Positions 37,326 through 60,937 of a stretch of 64,000 nucleotides of DNA are shown here, in pieces (within the stretch, counting starts at the first letter, position 1; every line of letters begins with the position of its first letter). The stretch is from Haloarcula pelagica (lineage in GTDB: Archaea; Halobacteriota; Halobacteria; Halobacteriales; Haloarculaceae), in contig NZ_CP126161.1 of NCBI RefSeq assembly GCF_030127105.1, positions 2,728,001 to 2,792,000 on the forward strand, in the 5' to 3' direction. Under the pieces are notes generated by a model. The model was not told where the DNA came from and did no database searches. It saw nothing but the letters and a program-made list of their open reading frames with translations. Both the position numbers and the translations under genes were made by a program.

Positions 37326-38822
37326 ATGCCACCAGGAGTCTTCTCGGACGGCGGGTTGTCGGTCCGGATTACGGCCAACACCCGCGACTTCGAGGAGGGC
37401 ATGGACGACGCCCAGGGCGAGGCCCTGGAGCTGGCCGGGACGCTGGAGGTCGTCGAGAACCGTGCTGACGAGGCCGAGGACGAGATCGGCGCCGCAGGCC
37501 GATCGGCGTCGACGGCGTCGGCTGGCTTCTCCAGCCTCAGCCTCTCGACGGTTGCACTGTCCGGATCCATCGCGACGCTCTCAACGACACTGCTACCCAT
37601 CACGGCAGCGCTCGGGACGGCCGCCGCGTCGGCTGGGGCGTTGGCCGGTGCGTTCGGGACAGTCGTCGGCAGCGGGTTCGTCGCTTACGCCGACAGGGTC
37701 GGTGGCACCGAGGAGGTGTTCAAGAACCTCCGTCAGGAGATCCGGCCGCTCATCGTCGACTTCGGCCAGCGATTCGCCCCGGCGATCGAGGACGGCGTCG
37801 ACGCACTCCCGACGCTCGTCGAGCGCTCCCTGGAGGCCGCCGGCTCCACTCAGGAGTTCAACGAGGCGCTGCAGGACTTCGGCGGCTTCGCGATGGAGGC
37901 GATTCCGGCTGCCTCGGGCGCGATGTTCGATCTCGCGCGAGATTCGCTGCCGGCGCTCCGACAGCTGTTCCGCTTCCTCCAGCGCAACGGCCCGACAGCG
38001 CTGCGGGAGATCCGCCGAGCCAGTGACGAGGTCGGGCCGGAGCTGATGGAGCTGCTGGACGCGCTGATCGACCTCTCTCCCACTCTTTTGCGGTTCGGGA
38101 CCACTGTTGCGGACTCCGTCCTGCCGCCGCTGACCTCGGCAGTTCGGGCGACCGACGACCTCCTGGAGTCGTTCAACAACCTGCCGCCGGGGATGCAAGA
38201 TGTCATCGCGAAGGGACTGGTCCTCGCGCCGCTGCTCGCGAAGATCGGCGGGTCGCTTACCGCCATCTCCCAGCTGGGGAACGTCTTCGCCGGGACGGGG
38301 ATCGGCGCGGCCGCCGGGTCGGCTGCGACGTTCGCGAGCGCCGGCACGATCGGCGCGGCGATCGGCCTCGGCATCGTCGACCAGCTCGAACAGCGCGGGA
38401 TCCTGGAGGGCATCGAAGGCGCCGGCCAAGGCACGCGAGAGACGGTCGGCGGGCAGGCTGCCGACACTGCGCTAAACGCCGCGAACATCCTCACGCTCGG
38501 GCAGTTGGAGGCGACCTCCGAAGCCGGCGCCGGCGTCATCTCGCTGGTCGGCGGCGACGCTAGCCCTGAAGCAGCCTCCAGCGTCTTCCAGAACGCCGGC
38601 GTGTCGCTTACGCCGAGAATCCAGAGCGACGCCGTCTCACAGCAGACCCGGCGCCCACCGAGAGCCGCCATGGCGACCACGCAGCCGACGAGCACCACGA
38701 TCCAGGTCCAGGCCGACACGATCCAGGCCAGCAACCAGCGGGAGGCCGACGAGGCCGTCCGCCGCATCGACAGAGCACTCCAGCGCGAGGGAGTTATGGA
38801 CACGGGAGCGCCGGGTCGATGA
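37326..38822 (+). CDS. Tape measure protein
   Basis: The 498-residue protein sets tail length. It starts right after the chaperone stop. It shows an N-terminal helical region (TRDFEEGMDDAQGEALELAG), a long hydrophobic Ala/Gly-rich region (about 75-120), further helices and a hydrophobic stretch near 320-345. At roughly 0.15 nm per residue, the known phage relation, it would predict a tail of about 70-75 nm. Confidence 0.86.
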   Translation: MPPGVFSDGGLSVRITANTRDFEEGMDDAQGEALELAGTLEVVENRADEAEDEIGAAGRSASTASAGFSSLSLSTVALSGSIATLSTTLLPITAALGTAAASAGALAGAFGTVVGSGFVAYADRVGGTEEVFKNLRQEIRPLIVDFGQRFAPAIEDGVDALPTLVERSLEAAGSTQEFNEALQDFGGFAMEAIPAASGAMFDLARDSLPALRQLFRFLQRNGPTALREIRRASDEVGPELMELLDALIDLSPTLLRFGTTVADSVLPPLTSAVRATDDLLESFNNLPPGMQDVIAKGLVLAPLLAKIGGSLTAISQLGNVFAGTGIGAAAGSAATFASAGTIGAAIGLGIVDQLEQRGILEGIEGAGQGTRETVGGQAADTALNAANILTLGQLEATSEAGAGVISLVGGDASPEAASSVFQNAGVSLTPRIQSDAVSQQTRRPPRAAMATTQPTSTTIQVQADTIQASNQREADEAVRRIDRALQREGVMDTGAPGR

Positions 38823-42769: not shown

Positions 42770-44377
42770 CTAACAACCCTCTCCGATCTCATAGAGGTGG
42801 ATTTGATCACGCGGCGTCGACACAGTCTGCAGGAAAGAAGTATCCGAAACCGGGAGCGTATCGACCGGCTTTCGATCAAACATCGTTGACATATCTACAC
42901 TCCCGCCGTCTGGCAGTTTAACCGGCGTCACCAGCACATCGACCTGATAGGCTCCACCCTCGTCACGAAGTGACCACTCTTGCCCGAAGTGGCCGACATG
43001 TCCAGCACGGACAGCTATCCCGCGTTCTGTGGCCTCGAATGAGAGCCGTTCCGGTCGGAAGCGAGTATAATCGCCCGACGAACTCCACGCCGGTGTGTGG
43101 CTTATCCAGACCTCATCACAGCCAGCTGCATCGACCTCTGTCATCACGGTGTCTGAGAACGTCGTCGGTTGCGAGGACATCATGTCGAGGGTAGCAAACG
43201 CCACACCCGCCATCGCAACCGATGATAACAACAATCCGGCCACCGCAACGCGGATGACGCTATGTCGATTTGCCCACTCGTACCGCAAGCCGACCCAGAC
43301 GAACAGCAGCGTCATCAGTGCGATGATGATATTTGCTCGACCAGCTGTCCGGATCAGGCCGCTCCCTGGAAGAGTGTAAATGACCGGCGAACCCGTCGCG
43401 ATCAAAGTACCGACAGCGATCACAACAACTGCTGCAGGCCGCCACGGTCCACTAATATCGCCCCAGTCTGTCTGTTTGACCGATCGATATCCTAACCAGA
43501 GGGCTGGAAGCCCGATGACTGCGAATCCAGGGAAAATGAGTCCCTTTTTGATCGAAATGCTCTCAATCAGATGCAATCCGGAGAGGAGCCAGACCATTTT
43601 CGGCAGTGTGAGTTTGAATCCCACCTCGGGCCGCGATGTCCCCTCCAACAACAGTGCGACAACCGTCACCAGTCGCGGGGTGCCGATCAGTCCAGCAAGA
43701 ACAGCACCTTTGATCATATCACGATGCCAGTACGCGAGTGCAAACGGCACCGCGATTAGCAGCCCGTAAATGAAATAATAGTTCCCAGCGGCGAGAAACA
43801 TCATCCCACCACAGAAACCCATTATATACCCTGCTCGGCGAGGGCGCTCGGTCAGATTTGAGGGTCGAAGCTGCCAGACCAACAATACCAGCCACGGCCA
43901 CGCGAACAGTTTCTCCAAGTGCCCGCCGAAGGCTTGAACAGTGATCGGCATCAGCCAGAGATAGGCAAATGGGACAGCGAAATAGTACGGCAACGTCTTT
44001 TGGCTGTAGTAATATGCGATGGCGGGTGCCGCAAGTAGGTGCGGCGCGACTACAATGTAAATCGCGGTTTTAAGTGGCAACCCGGGGACGTACAGCGGCC
44101 AGGCAAACGGATACCAGCCGAACCAGAGTGGATTCGCGAACTGGTAACGGCCGGAAAAGAAGAGATCAGTGTATATCGGTAACTCGCCAGCCAGCAGTGA
44201 AAACCGCGCGTGGAGTGCTGGCATCAGGTGGACAAAGATTTCGTTCCCAACGGGATACCCCTCTGTCATCAATGATGGCAGCAGAAGGCCCAGCACCGGA
44301 AGTGAGACGAGAAACGCTGAAAAGGTCTCTTTGTCTGTCTTTGAGAACCGAGTGTCTATTTTATTCCTATAACTCAT
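42770..44377 (-). CDS. GT-C-like polytopic membrane protein
   Basis: The 535-residue protein has about ten or more hydrophobic segments (for example FLVSLPVLGLLLPSL and YLWLMPITVQAFGGH) and an extracellular-type C-terminal soluble part of about 150 residues. An early conserved-looking loop with EIFVHLMPALHARFSLLAGE recalls GT-C glycosyltransferase/YfhO-like membrane proteins. It reads opposite to the tail genes, is AT-richer and starts four bases from the fibre stop, so it is probable cargo that could alter the host surface glycans. No catalytic residue is assigned. Confidence 0.7.
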   Translation of the reverse strand: MSYRNKIDTRFSKTDKETFSAFLVSLPVLGLLLPSLMTEGYPVGNEIFVHLMPALHARFSLLAGELPIYTDLFFSGRYQFANPLWFGWYPFAWPLYVPGLPLKTAIYIVVAPHLLAAPAIAYYYSQKTLPYYFAVPFAYLWLMPITVQAFGGHLEKLFAWPWLVLLVWQLRPSNLTERPRRAGYIMGFCGGMMFLAAGNYYFIYGLLIAVPFALAYWHRDMIKGAVLAGLIGTPRLVTVVALLLEGTSRPEVGFKLTLPKMVWLLSGLHLIESISIKKGLIFPGFAVIGLPALWLGYRSVKQTDWGDISGPWRPAAVVVIAVGTLIATGSPVIYTLPGSGLIRTAGRANIIIALMTLLFVWVGLRYEWANRHSVIRVAVAGLLLSSVAMAGVAFATLDMMSSQPTTFSDTVMTEVDAAGCDEVWISHTPAWSSSGDYTRFRPERLSFEATERGIAVRAGHVGHFGQEWSLRDEGGAYQVDVLVTPVKLPDGGSVDMSTMFDRKPVDTLPVSDTSFLQTVSTPRDQIHLYEIGEGC

Positions 44378-44467: not shown

Positions 44468-44911
44468 TTACTCGGGGACCAGCTGGACGATGTCGCCGTC
44501 GGGCGCCTGGACCGGCCCCGACAGCTCGCAGGCCTCGTCGTGGACGACCTCGAAGAGGTGCTCGTCGAGGTTCCCACAGGCACAGCGAAACGCCAGCGGC
44601 TCGTTCGTCGCGACGCCGGCTTTGCCGACCGCCGCGATGACGACCGTGATCTCGTGGTGGGGCTCGAACTCCGGCGTGGGCGTCTCCACGTCGACGTCGG
44701 GCTCCAAGTCGTCGTAGTGGGCGCGACCGTGCTCGCCGGCGAGCGAGCAACCAGCGTCGTGCCAGATCTGGTCGAGCGTCTCGTCGGCCTGGTGGCACTC
44801 CGCGCAGCGGTAGCCGACGCACTCCCCGGCGTGGACATCAGCCTCCTGCGGGTCGGTGACGGTCAGCCGGTGGACTGGCAGCCCCTCCAGAGGTTCCAGT
44901 TCGACTTTCAT
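44468..44911 (-). CDS. Cys-rich hypothetical protein
   Basis: The 147-residue protein has a first Cys set (YRCAECHQADETLD) and a second (FRCACGNLDEHLFEVVHDEA), suggesting two similar zinc-binding knuckles. It is the last gene of a leftward, tightly overlapped early cluster running from 47245. Function is unknown. Confidence 0.65.
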   Translation of the reverse strand: MKVELEPLEGLPVHRLTVTDPQEADVHAGECVGYRCAECHQADETLDQIWHDAGCSLAGEHGRAHYDDLEPDVDVETPTPEFEPHHEITVVIAAVGKAGVATNEPLAFRCACGNLDEHLFEVVHDEACELSGPVQAPDGDIVQLVPE

Positions 44912-45285
44912 CGCGACGCCTCCGTGAGGTGCGTGATCGTCACGTCTTCAACGACTTCGTCGCCGACCGGCCGCCAGTCGTCGCCGTCGCGCTCCTCGAC
45001 GTGGCGGGTCCACTCGTCGCCGTCGGGCACCCACCGATAGCGGCGGCGGTGGCCCGTCGGGAGCGTGTGCTCGACCACAACGCCACCCCCGCCGTCGGCG
45101 CGGACCGGGTCGCCATCTTCCCCGCCGTCGCCCAGCTCGTCCAGCGCCATGTCGGCGGCCATCGCGATGGTCGCCACGTCGACCGCCGCGTCGGCGTCCT
45201 CGTCGATCGCTTCCAGGACGAGGCCAGCTTGCTTGCGGATCTCCGCGAGGCGCTGCTGGGGAGAGCCCGTGGGGTGGTCAGTCAT
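44908..45285 (-). CDS. Hypothetical early protein
   Basis: This 125-residue protein has an N-terminal Ala/Asp-rich helix region (QQRLAEIRKQAGLVLEAIDE) and a strand-rich C-terminal part (RRRYRWVPDGDEWTRHVEER). It overlaps both neighbours. No domain is recognised. Confidence 0.6.
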   Translation of the reverse strand: MTDHPTGSPQQRLAEIRKQAGLVLEAIDEDADAAVDVATIAMAADMALDELGDGGEDGDPVRADGGGGVVVEHTLPTGHRRRYRWVPDGDEWTRHVEERDGDDWRPVGDEVVEDVTITHLTEASR

Positions 45286-45433
45286 TGACGGCCTCCTGCG
45301 CCGTCTCCCAGGCGTGACACGTCGGGCAGCCCCTGCGGTTGTGGTAGACGAACACGTTCCCGCAGTCGACGCAGTACACGACCCCGTCCGGCAGGTCGAG
45401 GTCTTGGGGTTCGTAGCTCGGGCCGTTATCCAT
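45278..45433 (-). CDS. Small zinc-ribbon protein
   Basis: The 51-residue protein starts MDNGPSYEPQDLDLPDGV and has CVDCGNVFVYHNRRGCPTC, a compact four-cysteine zinc ribbon. Its start overlaps the preceding SWIM remnant and its stop overlaps the next gene. Confidence 0.68.
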   Translation of the reverse strand: MDNGPSYEPQDLDLPDGVVYCVDCGNVFVYHNRRGCPTCHAWETAQEAVND

Positions 45434-45563
45434 CGTCGGACACCCCGGTATCGAAGTGTTGGTAGTCGGGCTCGCCGGCGACGTGCAGCCCCAGCTGGTC
45501 GTCGATCGCCGCGCGGTCGGCCCAGCTGGGGATCGGCCGCCGCCCGGTCGCGAAGGCGATCAT
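45426..45563 (-). pseudogene. Orphan 3' end of the SWIM gene after nuclease insertion
   Basis: The 45 residues begin MIAFATGRRPIPSWADRAAI and align with the end of the SWIM protein at 46312 (FETGRREVPGWADISAID): F-TGRR--P-WAD--AID-Q is shared. It looks like the original C-terminal part of a SWIM gene, now cut off by the LAGLIDADG gene. A perfect GGAGGTGA box at the end of the nuclease gene precedes this ATG, so it may still be translated. Confidence 0.68.
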
Positions 45564-46315
45564 CCGGTCACCTCCATCTTCAGTCGGTCATAGCGTTGGC
45601 GTGACTGGCTCTCCCACTTATACGCGAATCCTGCCGGCGCCGTCCCCATCCACTCAAGCAGGTCCTCTGTTTGCGTCGAAGACACACGCACGAGCGGTTC
45701 GCTGTATCGGGCGGTGAAGCCGTGCTCTCGGAACAGATCGCACAGGAACCCGGGACGATCGGCCTCGTTATGCGTTCCGAAGGCCGCGAAGACAGCACTG
45801 TCCGTCCACGAGATCCCGCCGTCCGAGCAGTACCATGCCTTCGCGGCAAGCGGGGTCAGATGGAGATCATCCGGATACCGAATTTCGCCGTCCGGATACC
45901 ATCGCTTGCGCATCATCGTGAGGTAGGGGTGCGACCGAACCGACATCCGGTAGATGTCGCTGTATTCCCAATCCCCACCGGAGTCGTCGAACGATGGGTT
46001 GCTCCGTGCCTTCCGACCGAGCTCTTCGCCAGTCTGGTCAAGCGTCGGCTCGGTCGCGAGCGGCCCGAACTGTGCGCGTAACCAGCGGAGCCAGCGTTCG
46101 TTCGTGCTGGTCACTCGCATCCGAGAATCACCGCTCCCGCGTTTGGGATTCGAGATCGATCCGTCGCCCATCACCAACCCCTTCAGCAGCTCACGCTGCT
46201 CTTGGGTGAGGGTGGGGTGGACACACGTCGCCGACTGCGCCCAGTGGTTCGCCAGTTGCTCGAACACACCACCGCAGTGTGGGCACACGTTCGCTGGCAG
46301 CACGTGTTCGCTCAT
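45560..46315 (-). CDS. LAGLIDADG-type homing endonuclease
   Basis: The 251-residue free-standing nuclease has an N-terminal Cys/His finger (CPHCGGVFEQLANHW at about 11-25), first LAGLIDADG-like motif LLKGLVMGDGSI at about 43-54 and a second LAAKAWYCSDGGIS at about 156-169, each ending in the acidic residue that binds metal. It lies inside a SWIM gene and overlaps the upstream and downstream pieces by four bases. Confidence 0.82.
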   Translation of the reverse strand: MSEHVLPANVCPHCGGVFEQLANHWAQSATCVHPTLTQEQRELLKGLVMGDGSISNPKRGSGDSRMRVTSTNERWLRWLRAQFGPLATEPTLDQTGEELGRKARSNPSFDDSGGDWEYSDIYRMSVRSHPYLTMMRKRWYPDGEIRYPDDLHLTPLAAKAWYCSDGGISWTDSAVFAAFGTHNEADRPGFLCDLFREHGFTARYSEPLVRVSSTQTEDLLEWMGTAPAGFAYKWESQSRQRYDRLKMEVTG

Positions 46316-46665
46316 TCCTCACCCTCCGCGGACACGTACTGGCGGAACTGCTCGTCGATCGCGCTGATGTCTGCCCAACCCGGCACTTCTCGCCGTCCAG
46401 TCTCGAACTGAACTCGGCGGATATGCAGACATCCGCCGGGTGGGTTTCGCACCTGATAGTCCAAGCACTCGCACGTCCCAAGATCCAGGTCAACAACGTA
46501 ACTGCGACCGGACCCGGACGTGACGTGAAACAGACCGGGCGCGTCGGCTGGCGCTGGCGCGATATCGTCCAGCACCGTCATGGTCTGAGTTAACGCCCGG
46601 GCGTCGCGTTCGTCGAGGTCCAGTGGGTCCGTCGCGGGGCGGAGTTCGGCGCGCTTCGACGCCAT
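46312..46665 (-). CDS. SWIM zinc-finger protein with replaced 3' end
   Basis: The 117-residue protein has the SWIM signature CxCx(n)CxH: CECLDYQVRNPPGGCLHIRR (about 66-85). It ends with FETGRREVPGWADISAID... The ending duplicates the orphan piece on the other side of the homing endonuclease. SWIM proteins often bind nucleic acid or partner proteins. Starts at the ATG overlapping the upstream stop. Confidence 0.78.
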   Translation of the reverse strand: MASKRAELRPATDPLDLDERDARALTQTMTVLDDIAPAPADAPGLFHVTSGSGRSYVVDLDLGTCECLDYQVRNPPGGCLHIRRVQFETGRREVPGWADISAIDEQFRQYVSAEGEE

Positions 46666-47066
46666 CACGCATCACCACCGGGGATCTCCCCGAGCCGCTG
46701 GCACTTGCTGGCCTCGTCGACGGCGCGGCGGCCGTCGGCGCCATGGTGGTCGATGATGTCGACCCGGTCGGCGACGACATCGTCCAGCCGCGCGAGGACC
46801 TGGGCCTTGGCCTCCGCATCGAGGACGTCGTGAATCTCTTCGCCGGCGGCGAAGGCGCCGTCCTTGGCGGCCTCGGACTCGACATCACCGGCGTCGGCGA
46901 GCGAGTAGGCCCGCTCCATGACGTTGGCGAGCCGGAGGACCGGCCCGTCGTCGTAGTACAGCTGGTCGCGGATGATGTCGCCCAGGAGCTGGCTCTCGAA
47001 GCGGTCGGCGACGCGATCGATGGCCTCACGCCGGCGCGTGTCGGCCATCGGGTGCTCGCCGTTCAT
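46665..47066 (-). CDS. Helical hypothetical early protein
   Basis: From MNGEHPMADTRRREAIDRVA the protein has 133 residues and is predicted almost fully helical and acidic (RLANVMERAYSLADAGDVES, AEAKAQVLARLDDVVADRVD). No domain is recognised. A longer frame runs upstream but the ATG at 47066 fits the overlap with the preceding gene. Confidence 0.62.
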   Translation of the reverse strand: MNGEHPMADTRRREAIDRVADRFESQLLGDIIRDQLYYDDGPVLRLANVMERAYSLADAGDVESEAAKDGAFAAGEEIHDVLDAEAKAQVLARLDDVVADRVDIIDHHGADGRRAVDEASKCQRLGEIPGGDA

Positions 47067-47245
47067 GCCGCCCCTCCGCAGCAGTCGGCGAGATCCCGCT
47101 CGCGCATCGCTTCGGCGCGGCAGTCGGTACACCGGTAGAAGTGCTCGCCGGTGTGCTGTCCGAACTTGTCGAACTCCGGGATCGGGCCCTCAATGCGGTC
47201 GTCAGTGTCGGTACGTTCTTGGGTTGGGGTCTGGTACGTAGACAT
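47063..47245 (-). CDS. Small zinc-ribbon protein, first gene of leftward cluster
   Basis: From the ATG at 47245 this is MSTYQTPTQERTDTDDRIEG followed by FYRCTDCRAEAMRERDLADC and CGG at the end, likely a zinc-binding protein of 60 residues. It is the promoter-proximal gene of the leftward operon that ends at 44468. Confidence 0.62.
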   Translation of the reverse strand: MSTYQTPTQERTDTDDRIEGPIPEFDKFGQHTGEHFYRCTDCRAEAMRERDLADCCGGAA

Positions 47246-57935: not shown

Positions 57936-58559
57936 ATGCCAGATGGGGCTCACGACAAAGTCAAACTCAATGTCCGAGTACCTCCCAACAAGAAGCAGGA
58001 GTGGAAGGATTCCTTGGAGGAGGGAGAGACGCTTTCGTCCCTTGTTCGACGAGCAGTTGATCACGAGATCCGCGACGAATATGTCTCGAAGGGCGCTATT
58101 GACGAATTAGTAACACCCACTGATCAGTCAGATATCGATCTTTCATCTCTGACGGATCGGCTCGAGGAAATGCAACAGACCGTAGAAGCTTTTGAGAGCA
58201 AACTCGACACACTGTCGGCGTCAAGTACGGAAGAAGCTGACGGAGACATTGAAAATCTCGCTATGGATCTTCTCCCACGGATTCCAACGTATCCTCAGGA
58301 CATCCCGGAGCATGTTCTACGTAGTGTGGAGGGGACTGGCGACATGGATCCGAAAGAGTATATCAGTTACATCATTCCGGCCTCCCGGAAAGACGAAGAC
58401 TTTCCCCTGATCGAAGGGACAGCACAACGGCTTGCGCGGGAGATGAGAGAACCCACTCCGAAGGTCCGTGAAGCACTCATTTACCTCGAAACAGATACGA
58501 CTGAGAACGTCGAGAGCGCCATCGTTGACGGTGTTCGGCACTGGATGAAAGGACTATGA
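57936..58559 (+). CDS. Ribbon-helix-helix protein next to integrase remnant
   Basis: The 207-residue protein starts MPDGAHDKVKLNVRVPPNKK and has a beta strand plus two helices (QEWKDSLEEGETLSSLVRRA), like CopG-type DNA-binding proteins. A coiled region (RLEEMQQTVEAFESKLDTLS) and a C-terminal helical domain follow. TTTTATTTAG at 57903-57912 is a likely leaderless promoter. It overlaps the truncated integrase by four bases, a RHH-integrase pair like other haloarchaeal integrative elements. Confidence 0.7.
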   Translation: MPDGAHDKVKLNVRVPPNKKQEWKDSLEEGETLSSLVRRAVDHEIRDEYVSKGAIDELVTPTDQSDIDLSSLTDRLEEMQQTVEAFESKLDTLSASSTEEADGDIENLAMDLLPRIPTYPQDIPEHVLRSVEGTGDMDPKEYISYIIPASRKDEDFPLIEGTAQRLAREMREPTPKVREALIYLETDTTENVESAIVDGVRHWMKGL

Positions 58560-59233
58560 GAAACGAAAAAGGCCAGTATTCCAGCCCGGAGGACAAGCAA
58601 ATCTCATCAGAGATGGAAGAACTACTGGGTCTTTATCTCACCAGCCTCCAACAACAGAAATCAAGAACCAAAGAGTCCACACTTGAAACCCGTCGCCGTG
58701 AGGTGCGATATTGGTTGGCATTCTGTGAGTCGAACGATATTGACCCACTTGCAGCGACTACCGACGATGTCAAAGGCTACATCCAGGTCAACACTCACCT
58801 TGCTGACACGACAATCGGTTCGTATTATCGTTCAGTTCAGTCGTTCTATAGTATCGTCGAGAACGACGCCGCAGAGGATCGGCTCGAACTTGCTAACGGC
58901 CATCCCTGCAAAGACCGACACACGATTAATCTGAAGGAAGATTACGACATCCACGAAGACAAGGCGGAATACAAGCTACAGCATGATTTAGTAGCGCAGG
59001 ATATCGACGGTGTCAGAGAAGGATCCAGTGACATACTTGCTCTCAAACCACAACAGGTAGAGTCCCTTTTCGATAACGTCCCGGGAAAGACGCCTGGATC
59101 AAAACTCCGGAATGAAGTCGCTGTGAGATTAAACTGGTATACGGGCTGCCGGAGCGTTGAATTGTCACGGCTGAGTATCGACAACATCGACTGGGACGAG
59201 TGTAGTATCGACGTCCAATGGGCAAAGCTCTGA
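58556..59233 (+). pseudogene. Truncated tyrosine integrase
   Basis: The 225-residue frame has a complete SAM-like core-binding domain (ESTLETRRREVRYWLAFCES at about 41-60) and the beginning of the catalytic domain through the first active arginine (WYTGCRSVELSRLSIDNID). It stops right afterwards, so His-x-x-Arg and Tyr are missing. It is AT-richer than the provirus. It is probably dead, or survives only as a DNA-binding protein. Confidence 0.78.
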
Positions 59234-59335
59234 TAGGATATGGTATATAAATGGTGTGGTGTTTGAGTGGGCACGCGCGCTCTGAGACACCCTGGGACTC
59301 TTAAGCACGGTCCAATAATAATCGGGGTATCGCAG

Positions 59336-60937
59336 ATGTTAGAAACGGAGCGTTCATCGGATGAAGCACTGCGGGAACCGACGTACCGCCGACTTTATCT
59401 CGGTGCTCTGGAGATCGAAAACTCCGAAAGACGATTGAAAGCCTGTTATATTATTCTACTTGGTGGGAGGTTAGGTCTCCGTACTGGTGAGATTCAGCAC
59501 GTTCGAAAGGAGTGGATCGATTGGGATCGCGGAGAAATAGCGATTCCTCGGCACGACCCGTGTACCTGTATGAACTGTTGGATCCGTGCGAAGCAGAAAG
59601 CCGCTGGTGAAGATGAGGACTTTAGGGATGAACTTGAAGAGTTAGTTGAGCGGAAAATGCTCGAGGACTCGGACAGAGACACGGAGGAAGTTGCTGAGAA
59701 AATGTTGCAGGATGATGAGCTACCCGAGGAAGTTTCCGACGAAGATGACGAGGAAGACGCAGATGACGAGGAAAACGCGGATGACGACAGGACACCAGAA
59801 GAGATTCTGTACGAGGAGCGGTGGCAGCCAAAATACGAACGGAGTGCCCGTCGAGTTCCGTTCGGTCATTCCCGACGACTAACAGCCGTTGTCATACAGT
59901 TTATTTCAAACTATGGGTATATGGAAATCACTCAGGTAGCGATGAATAATCTCGTAGAGGAGGCAGCGGAAAACGCTGAGGGGGTAGATCCGGAAAACAT
60001 TACGATTCGGGGCCTTCGGGCCACAGCAGCCACACACTATGCGACTTTTATCCGAAACCCCAAGGCGCTTCAAGATTTACTGGGCTGGACCCGAATCGAA
60101 ACGGCTGTCCGGTACCTTCGTCGTGCAGGCGCATTTACCACCGACGTAGTTTACCACGCGTTTGACGAAGGGGACCTCGCGCCGGCCATGTTCCCAGGAG
60201 AACCCAAGTATCGGTATCCGATTCTCGATAACCCGCTGCCGTATCAAAACGAACCGTACGACCCCATGATGTATCCCAAAGAGAGGCGGCAAGAGACTGG
60301 GCGCTCTCTCACAGAGTCTTCAGTCCGGCAGCTCATTCACCCGAGAGCACAAAATCATCCTGATGAACTTGATTACGACCCGGACAATCATCAACTGCTC
60401 ACTCACGAAGATTATGAAGATGACATTCTCGATCGCGGTGGGTTAACTATGTTTGAAGCACCAACGCTGGCGGAATTTTACGAGGACCACGAACGGCTGT
60501 CAGGATCCACTGTATCAGACCGTTCAAATCGTCGGTATGAATCGAAACAAGAGTGGGAGGAAAAGCATATTTGGCAGAGTGAATTATTTGAAAACCACGG
60601 AGAAGAAGACGAAAACCGTTTACCGATCCGAGGAGCAGCCTCAACGATTCTCATCACGTATCTTAAGTTTGTTGAGTATTTTGGTGATCGTCTGTCGACT
60701 CTGCTCAGTGGACACACTTCTGGACCAGTAGATACCGAGTCAAAACCACTTTTGGGGATCATGGGAATGGGAGCCATTGTTTCTATGCTCGTGATTATTT
60801 TCAGTCAGGTGGGAATCCTAAACTTGCAGACAATGTCGTTTCAGTTCCGCCCGCTGATACTCGTTTCACTTGCCATTGCTCTGTATACGGCCTACAAACT
60901 CCCCGACTTTGAGTCGATGAGTGAGATATTCAACTGA
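59336..60937 (+). CDS. Tyrosine recombinase with C-terminal membrane segments
   Basis: From the ATG at 59336 (MLETERSSDEALREPTYRRL) the 533-residue protein has the first catalytic Arg in GGRLGLRTGEIQHVRKEWID (about 47-66), CMNCW in a finger-like insertion, and an acidic insertion of about 60 residues. ITIRGLRATAATHYATF follows (Arg kept, the usual His replaced), then LLGWTRIETAVRYLRRAG with the Tyr. Two hydrophobic helices near the end (about 440-462 and 475-510) would place it at the membrane. CTTAAG at 59300-59305 is a possible promoter. Start upstream at 59267 is less likely. Confidence 0.75.
   Translation: MLETERSSDEALREPTYRRLYLGALEIENSERRLKACYIILLGGRLGLRTGEIQHVRKEWIDWDRGEIAIPRHDPCTCMNCWIRAKQKAAGEDEDFRDELEELVERKMLEDSDRDTEEVAEKMLQDDELPEEVSDEDDEEDADDEENADDDRTPEEILYEERWQPKYERSARRVPFGHSRRLTAVVIQFISNYGYMEITQVAMNNLVEEAAENAEGVDPENITIRGLRATAATHYATFIRNPKALQDLLGWTRIETAVRYLRRAGAFTTDVVYHAFDEGDLAPAMFPGEPKYRYPILDNPLPYQNEPYDPMMYPKERRQETGRSLTESSVRQLIHPRAQNHPDELDYDPDNHQLLTHEDYEDDILDRGGLTMFEAPTLAEFYEDHERLSGSTVSDRSNRRYESKQEWEEKHIWQSELFENHGEEDENRLPIRGAASTILITYLKFVEYFGDRLSTLLSGHTSGPVDTESKPLLGIMGMGAIVSMLVIIFSQVGILNLQTMSFQFRPLILVSLAIALYTAYKLPDFESMSEIFN

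Follow-up and report, generated by a model that had tools for sequence, protein, structure and literature searches.

The window, by which we mean the whole 64,000-nucleotide stretch of Haloarcula pelagica DNA that was analysed, is part of a 3.53-Mb contig, the chromosome of this haloarchaeon, and carries on its minus strand a run of small genes around a gene for a SWIM-type protein. An upstream neighbour (46665-47063; PHROG 26013, unknown function) is followed by the SWIM gene of 117 codons (ATG at 46665, stop at 46312), a LAGLIDADG homing endonuclease gene for 251 amino acids with an N-terminal C-C-H-C motif (45560-46315), an orphan frame (45426-45563), a zinc-ribbon-like frame (45278-45433) and a conserved downstream neighbour (44908-45285). 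The SWIM, LAGLIDADG and orphan frames had been named in a first-pass annotation and were found where it had placed them. The SWIM-type CxC...CxH residues are present in the protein, which matches PHROG 17897 (unknown function) at 2e-25; its zinc finger scores E=0.098 in Pfam, below cut-off. At each end of the nuclease gene a start and a stop codon share the bases ATGA: the nuclease start with the SWIM stop at one end, and the orphan start with the nuclease stop at the other. The SWIM frame ends in FETGRREVPGWADISAID..., where the nuclease frame overlaps its stop; the gene has its own 3' end and stop before the nuclease gene, and the SWIM protein is thus kept complete, as that annotation had proposed. 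The orphan frame opens with MIAFATGRRPIPSWADRAAID..., its new in-frame ATG being given by the nuclease stop within ATGA, and four bases ahead of this ATG lies a ribosome-binding-like box, GGAGGTGA (45568-45575), inside the 3' end of the nuclease gene. Because a tape-measure-like gene (37326-38822) lies on one side of the SWIM locus and an integrase gene (57821-56532) on the other, we read the element as a provirus.

The nuclease gene looks intact, as far as its sequence and predicted fold allow one to say. It matches Pfam LAGLIDADG_2 (E=2.4e-10) and the PHROG homing endonuclease family (2e-36), and the best fold match of its predicted model (pLDDT 91.4) is I-SceI, over the full length (Foldseek E=1.8e-8), which a sequence profile of the nuclease also ranks first (E=1e-5). 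The active-site aspartates D51 and D165 are both present and are invariant in 15/15 and 17/17 aligned sequences, the window's included, so that the protein combines the fold of a LAGLIDADG homing endonuclease with a catalytic Asp in each motif. The single-chain two-motif fold is that of the I-SceI-type endonucleases (PDB 5a0m, 1r7m); compared with I-SceI, the window nuclease has 14% identity and the extra N-terminal C-C-H-C motif, and is not intron-encoded. An intein or intron was considered and rejected: the foreign SWIM part described below has its own stop before the nuclease, which in turn has its own start and stop, and a domain search of the nuclease gave no Hint/intein match. The closest nuclease found (57%) is in genome G323, of another family, directly before a complete SWIM gene, in an order that is the reverse of that in the window; the two G323 genes overlap by ATGA, and a GAGGTGA box stands at the same place. 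At that locus (L117, G323:C1:544000-552000) the nuclease overlaps both of its neighbours by ATGA, a small zinc-type frame on one side and the complete SWIM gene on the other. Relatives of the nuclease adjoin swim, pcna, thyX, rtcB, terL or polB genes (the pcna and thyX neighbours by a Pfam check of one each). Many of them (L118-L121, L138-L147, L150 and others) lie close after a pcna stop in haloarchaeal chromosomes; a duplicated gene end was looked for at the loci after pcna, and none was detected.

The sequences upstream and downstream of the nuclease gene are homologous (TBLASTX, E=4e-8), the matches stopping 9 nt before the gene and resuming 3 nt after it. Together with the DNA alignment this bears out the earlier claim that the present SWIM end and the orphan are related at the protein and DNA level, and it places the nuclease gene between two homologous host-gene ends. 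Chance similarity of the two ends was rejected on two controls: only 2/273 mismatched upstream/downstream pairs scored, both of them thyX against thyX, which are real homologues, and the same comparison around 44 other ORFs gave one match, weak, distant and of 15 residues.

Which of the two ends is native is indicated by a second SWIM locus in the same genome, L002, found by a search with the window SWIM protein (59% identity). Its SWIM gene is uninterrupted: by BLASTN, the orphan and both flanks of the window's SWIM locus match it and the insert is absent. DNA identity is 88% over the upstream gene and the SWIM start (46574-47069), 90% between the orphan and the L002 SWIM 3' end over 129 bases (45431-45559) and 95% for the downstream gene (44908-45283), and window 45560-46573 has no BLASTN match in L002. 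The first-pass annotation had predicted that an uninterrupted SWIM gene would end like the orphan; L002 does so and does not resemble the present end, although this empty-site evidence is one uninterrupted copy, in the same genome as the window. Judged against L002, then, the downstream end is native and the upstream end foreign. The two SWIM matches in L002 lie 149 bp apart (L134 9671-9819), from which we take it that 149 bp of native SWIM were replaced by 1014 bp. The zinc-ribbon-like frame between the orphan and the downstream gene is absent from L002, whose two matches there abut (L134 9539/9542), and it marks a further event here, an insertion or a loss.

The two junctions differ in sharpness. 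Identity between the window and L002 SWIM genes is 0.97, 0.87 and 0.77 in the first three 30-nt blocks (nt 1-90) and 0.43-0.63 thereafter; because of this drop we put the left junction at about 46594-46574, blurred over about 20 bp. The native 5' part of the gene thus covers codons 1 to about 25-31 (46574-46665), and the foreign middle and 3' part (46312-46573) carries CxC...CxH and the stop codon. Because its start lies ahead of the zinc finger, the foreign part makes up most of the SWIM protein. The right junction is sharp, at 45559/45560, and is seen from two sides: in a DNA search across the order (392 genomes), 18 of the 41 matches listed, in 12 genomes, start exactly at 45559, two others starting 8 bases before these, and the match of the G323 nuclease ends at 45560. 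A search for the native left flank in 32 genomes gave only the window, L002 and one weak match. R/K-V-A-F runs without a break over the right junction in 19 of 35 compared SWIM genes, as it does in L002, by a loose pattern that 30 of the 35 fitted in some form, and on this ground L002 looks ancestral.

Base composition bears on the same question. The third codon position is G or C in 59/86 of SWIM codons 32-117 and in 189/252 of the nuclease codons, compared with 477/536 over six segments of the native flanks (p=5e-6 and p=9e-7), and the shift is common to both stretches with no native stretch between them. Composition therefore marks the insert in the window, not L002, as foreign. One might suppose instead that the window preserves the older state, in which a nuclease separates two SWIM genes in tandem, and that L002 arose by a deletion fusing the 5' part of one to the 3' part of the other; the G323 nuclease, preceding a complete SWIM gene, suggests that such a SWIM-nuclease-SWIM order could exist. 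However, the orphan lacks a 5' part, its beginning coinciding exactly with the end of the nuclease, and both the composition and the R/K-V-A-F reading of the other SWIM genes point the other way, so that we consider this account very improbable.

The alignments and the composition together lead us to conclude that in this putative provirus a foreign segment of ~1.0 kb (45560-46573), comprising most of a divergent SWIM gene and the nuclease gene, replaced 149 bp of native SWIM, and that the SWIM gene, as judged by these comparisons, is a 5'-native/3'-foreign hybrid whose native 3' end is the downstream orphan (native DNA from 45559). The first-pass annotation had pictured the insertion of a homing gene together with a divergent 3' end. 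That both entered the SWIM gene holds, and the orphan is native by comparison with L002, but its further proposal, a spare 3' end placed behind the CxH part, does not fit a foreign part that begins ahead of the zinc finger and a replacement in place of a pure insertion.

A donor with SWIM and nuclease in this order was not found in the order-wide DNA search or among viral contigs. The viral contig L008 is a relative of the foreign SWIM part, with 80% DNA identity over the first 75 nt of that part, from about codon 30; its N-terminus differs from that of the window SWIM protein, which supports the hybrid reading, and the contig ends within SWIM, its record giving no SWIM match beyond this one. 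The nuclease in G323 favors the replacement as well, in that it too adjoins a SWIM gene, on the 5' side, but its reversed order counts against it. Searches of viral contigs with the nuclease alone, SWIM codons 28-117, the L002 SWIM gene and the orphan DNA pattern gave no donor. In the genome contigs the window SWIM protein found no relative, and the nuclease N-terminus found a sole match, in a contig of a Planctomycetes bin (L136; 52% over 23 residues).

Plain intronless homing with co-conversion might have left the orphan as a domesticated, functional small protein and not as a scar, and its in-frame ATG behind a perfect GGAGGTGA box would suit such a role. Among the matches read in the SWIM and order-wide DNA searches, however, no stand-alone gene of the orphan kind was seen, and G323 has retained the box too, ahead of a full SWIM gene that it serves there; for the latter reason we think that the box comes with the nuclease gene, in line with the earlier suggestion that this gene supplied it. 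We regard a domesticated orphan as the least credible of the readings considered.

We compared 1.2 kb before with 1.2 kb after the nuclease at 70 non-redundant loci, at a cut-off of E<=1e-4, skipping sides shorter than 90 nt, and with some flanks shorter than 1.2 kb. Six of the 70 scored, of which five, the window included, are real; the sixth, L217, was rejected as an artefact (a low-complexity match 669 nt away). At the other 64 loci no flanking gene-end duplication was detected. Three of the five duplications are of 3' ends (SWIM, rtcB, polB) and two of 5' ends (rtcB, terL), the gene families having been checked, terL by PHROG only. Two RtcB C-terminal parts surround the nuclease in L128 (genome G113; E=2e-28); in L155 (genome G234) the nuclease is degraded and has the truncated 5' end of an rtcB before it and a complete rtcB after it (2e-20); truncated and complete terL 5' ends are found in the viral contig L166 (4e-11); and in the viral contig L184 the last residues of a polB N-half recur after the nuclease (25 residues, 3e-5). 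Codon composition of the gene end on the nuclease side is 0.40 in L128, compared with 0.91 for the orphan and 0.39 for the nuclease itself; the last 40 codons in L184 give 0.25 against 0.62, and the values are 0.64 against 0.82 in L155 and 0.55 against 0.76 in L166, where the orphan likewise has 0.55 and is not compositionally distinct. This nuclease-like composition agrees with a foreign origin of the nuclease-side gene end in all four loci. The weakest case is L184, with its 25 matching residues and a downstream copy 167 nt away. The upstream RtcB part of L128 matches a viral-type RtcB profile (PHROG 1075), which hints that the donor there may have been viral. Separately, L184 (IMGVR_UViG_3300017825_000024) is also a case of a split halovirus-like polB, in which the N-half, the nuclease and the short repeat of the N-half end are followed by an RNase-H-like frame and then by the rest of polB with an intein.

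The recurrence in unrelated genes of foreign gene ends on the nuclease side also weighs against a history in two steps, in which the nuclease alone split the native SWIM gene and the truncated upstream part later regained an end from another SWIM gene. The left and right junctions need not share an age, and SWIM genes are common enough to provide such an end, 51 of 60 related genomes carrying one. Yet SWIM codons 32-117 and the nuclease share the composition shift without a native stretch between them, and the upstream SWIM stop overlaps the nuclease start; we consider two steps unlikely.

We therefore favor the replacement of a segment in one event, and propose the following scenario. A cut by the nuclease, at 45559/45560 or right beside it, would have opened the native SWIM gene in the conserved RVAFATG region. 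Resection would then have removed about 150 bp from the left end, and the gap would have been filled by copying from a donor with a SWIM gene immediately ahead of its nuclease gene, by way of the short homology around 46574-46594. Since the right end had no homology past the nuclease gene, it would have been joined directly, and the duplicate would be the result. With the foreign SWIM end the invaded gene would stay complete, and the diverged site in that end may resist cutting; the duplicated gene ends at other targets of this nuclease family would be scars of the same process. To this explanation as a whole, that is, segment replacement yielding a hybrid SWIM gene and an orphan through a nuclease cut and one-sided repair, with the same process acting elsewhere, we assign a probability of about 0.8. 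One point against it is that L002, the likely target copy, persists uncut beside the nuclease in this genome; perhaps the nuclease is silent or inactive, or else the L002 site has changed.

Parts of this scenario have precedents. In the portions of the fungal mitochondrial literature that describe mORF gene hybrids (Allomyces macrogynus atp6; Glomus sp. atp6, atp9, cox2 and nad3; PMC3630166), a LAGLIDADG or GIY-YIG gene lies outside any intron or intein, and a native 5' part with an in-frame foreign C-terminal part is followed by the nuclease gene and an orphaned native C-terminal end, a close relative matching the downstream orphan end and not the present end. The four-part layout in the window is, on that description, the same. 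The window case differs in lying in a haloarchaeal chromosome, in what we read as an archaeal provirus, and not in a fungal mitochondrion; in that the foreign part covers about 86/117 SWIM codons; in that the nuclease has a frame of its own, which overlaps its neighbours and carries a ribosome-binding-like box for the orphan; and in that the nuclease family also has the mirror 5'-end cases. T4-like phages offer a second comparison, with free-standing homing endonucleases, intronless homing and the split genes of mobE/mobA (PMC2988022); as in the window, a phage-type nuclease gene lies beside or inside conserved genes. In contrast to the window, the sections of that paper that treat them have the host gene split in two or intact and mention no foreign gene end that arrives along with the nuclease. 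The same source reports that one-sided homing in a T4 intron system ended in illegitimate repair, with long resection and with microhomology at the junctions; for Haloferax, end joining by microhomology is reported (PMC7521656). A literature search of limited coverage found no report of this arrangement for archaea, their viruses or phages.

Invasion in which a nuclease brings its own gene end, known from fungal mitochondria, would thus extend to a provirus of an archaeon and, on the evidence of the scan, to genes of viruses and hosts such as rtcB, terL and polB, a mirror 5' form included. There may be a broader pattern, to which we give about even odds: that a free-standing family of haloarchaeal and viral LAGLIDADG nucleases invades coding genes together with one end of the target, 5' or 3', without an intron or intein, each jump bringing in a foreign, cleavage-resistant end, making a hybrid and turning the native end into a scar from which one could read where the cut fell and which way DNA had passed between viruses or between virus and host. 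Such scars should point to the cut sites of the nucleases, so that the specificity of the family can be tested; they also illustrate one way in which homing could build hybrid genes between viruses and hosts.

Two stretches of low GC content were noted elsewhere in the window. Between the tail genes and the SWIM locus, DNA of about 0.55 GC (compared with 0.66 around it) at 42770-44377 holds, on the opposite strand, a gene for a 535-aa membrane-type protein, which looks like a late acquisition; and a block of about 0.50 GC at 57936-60937 contains two further tyrosine-recombinase-like frames, at 58556-59233 and 59267-60937.
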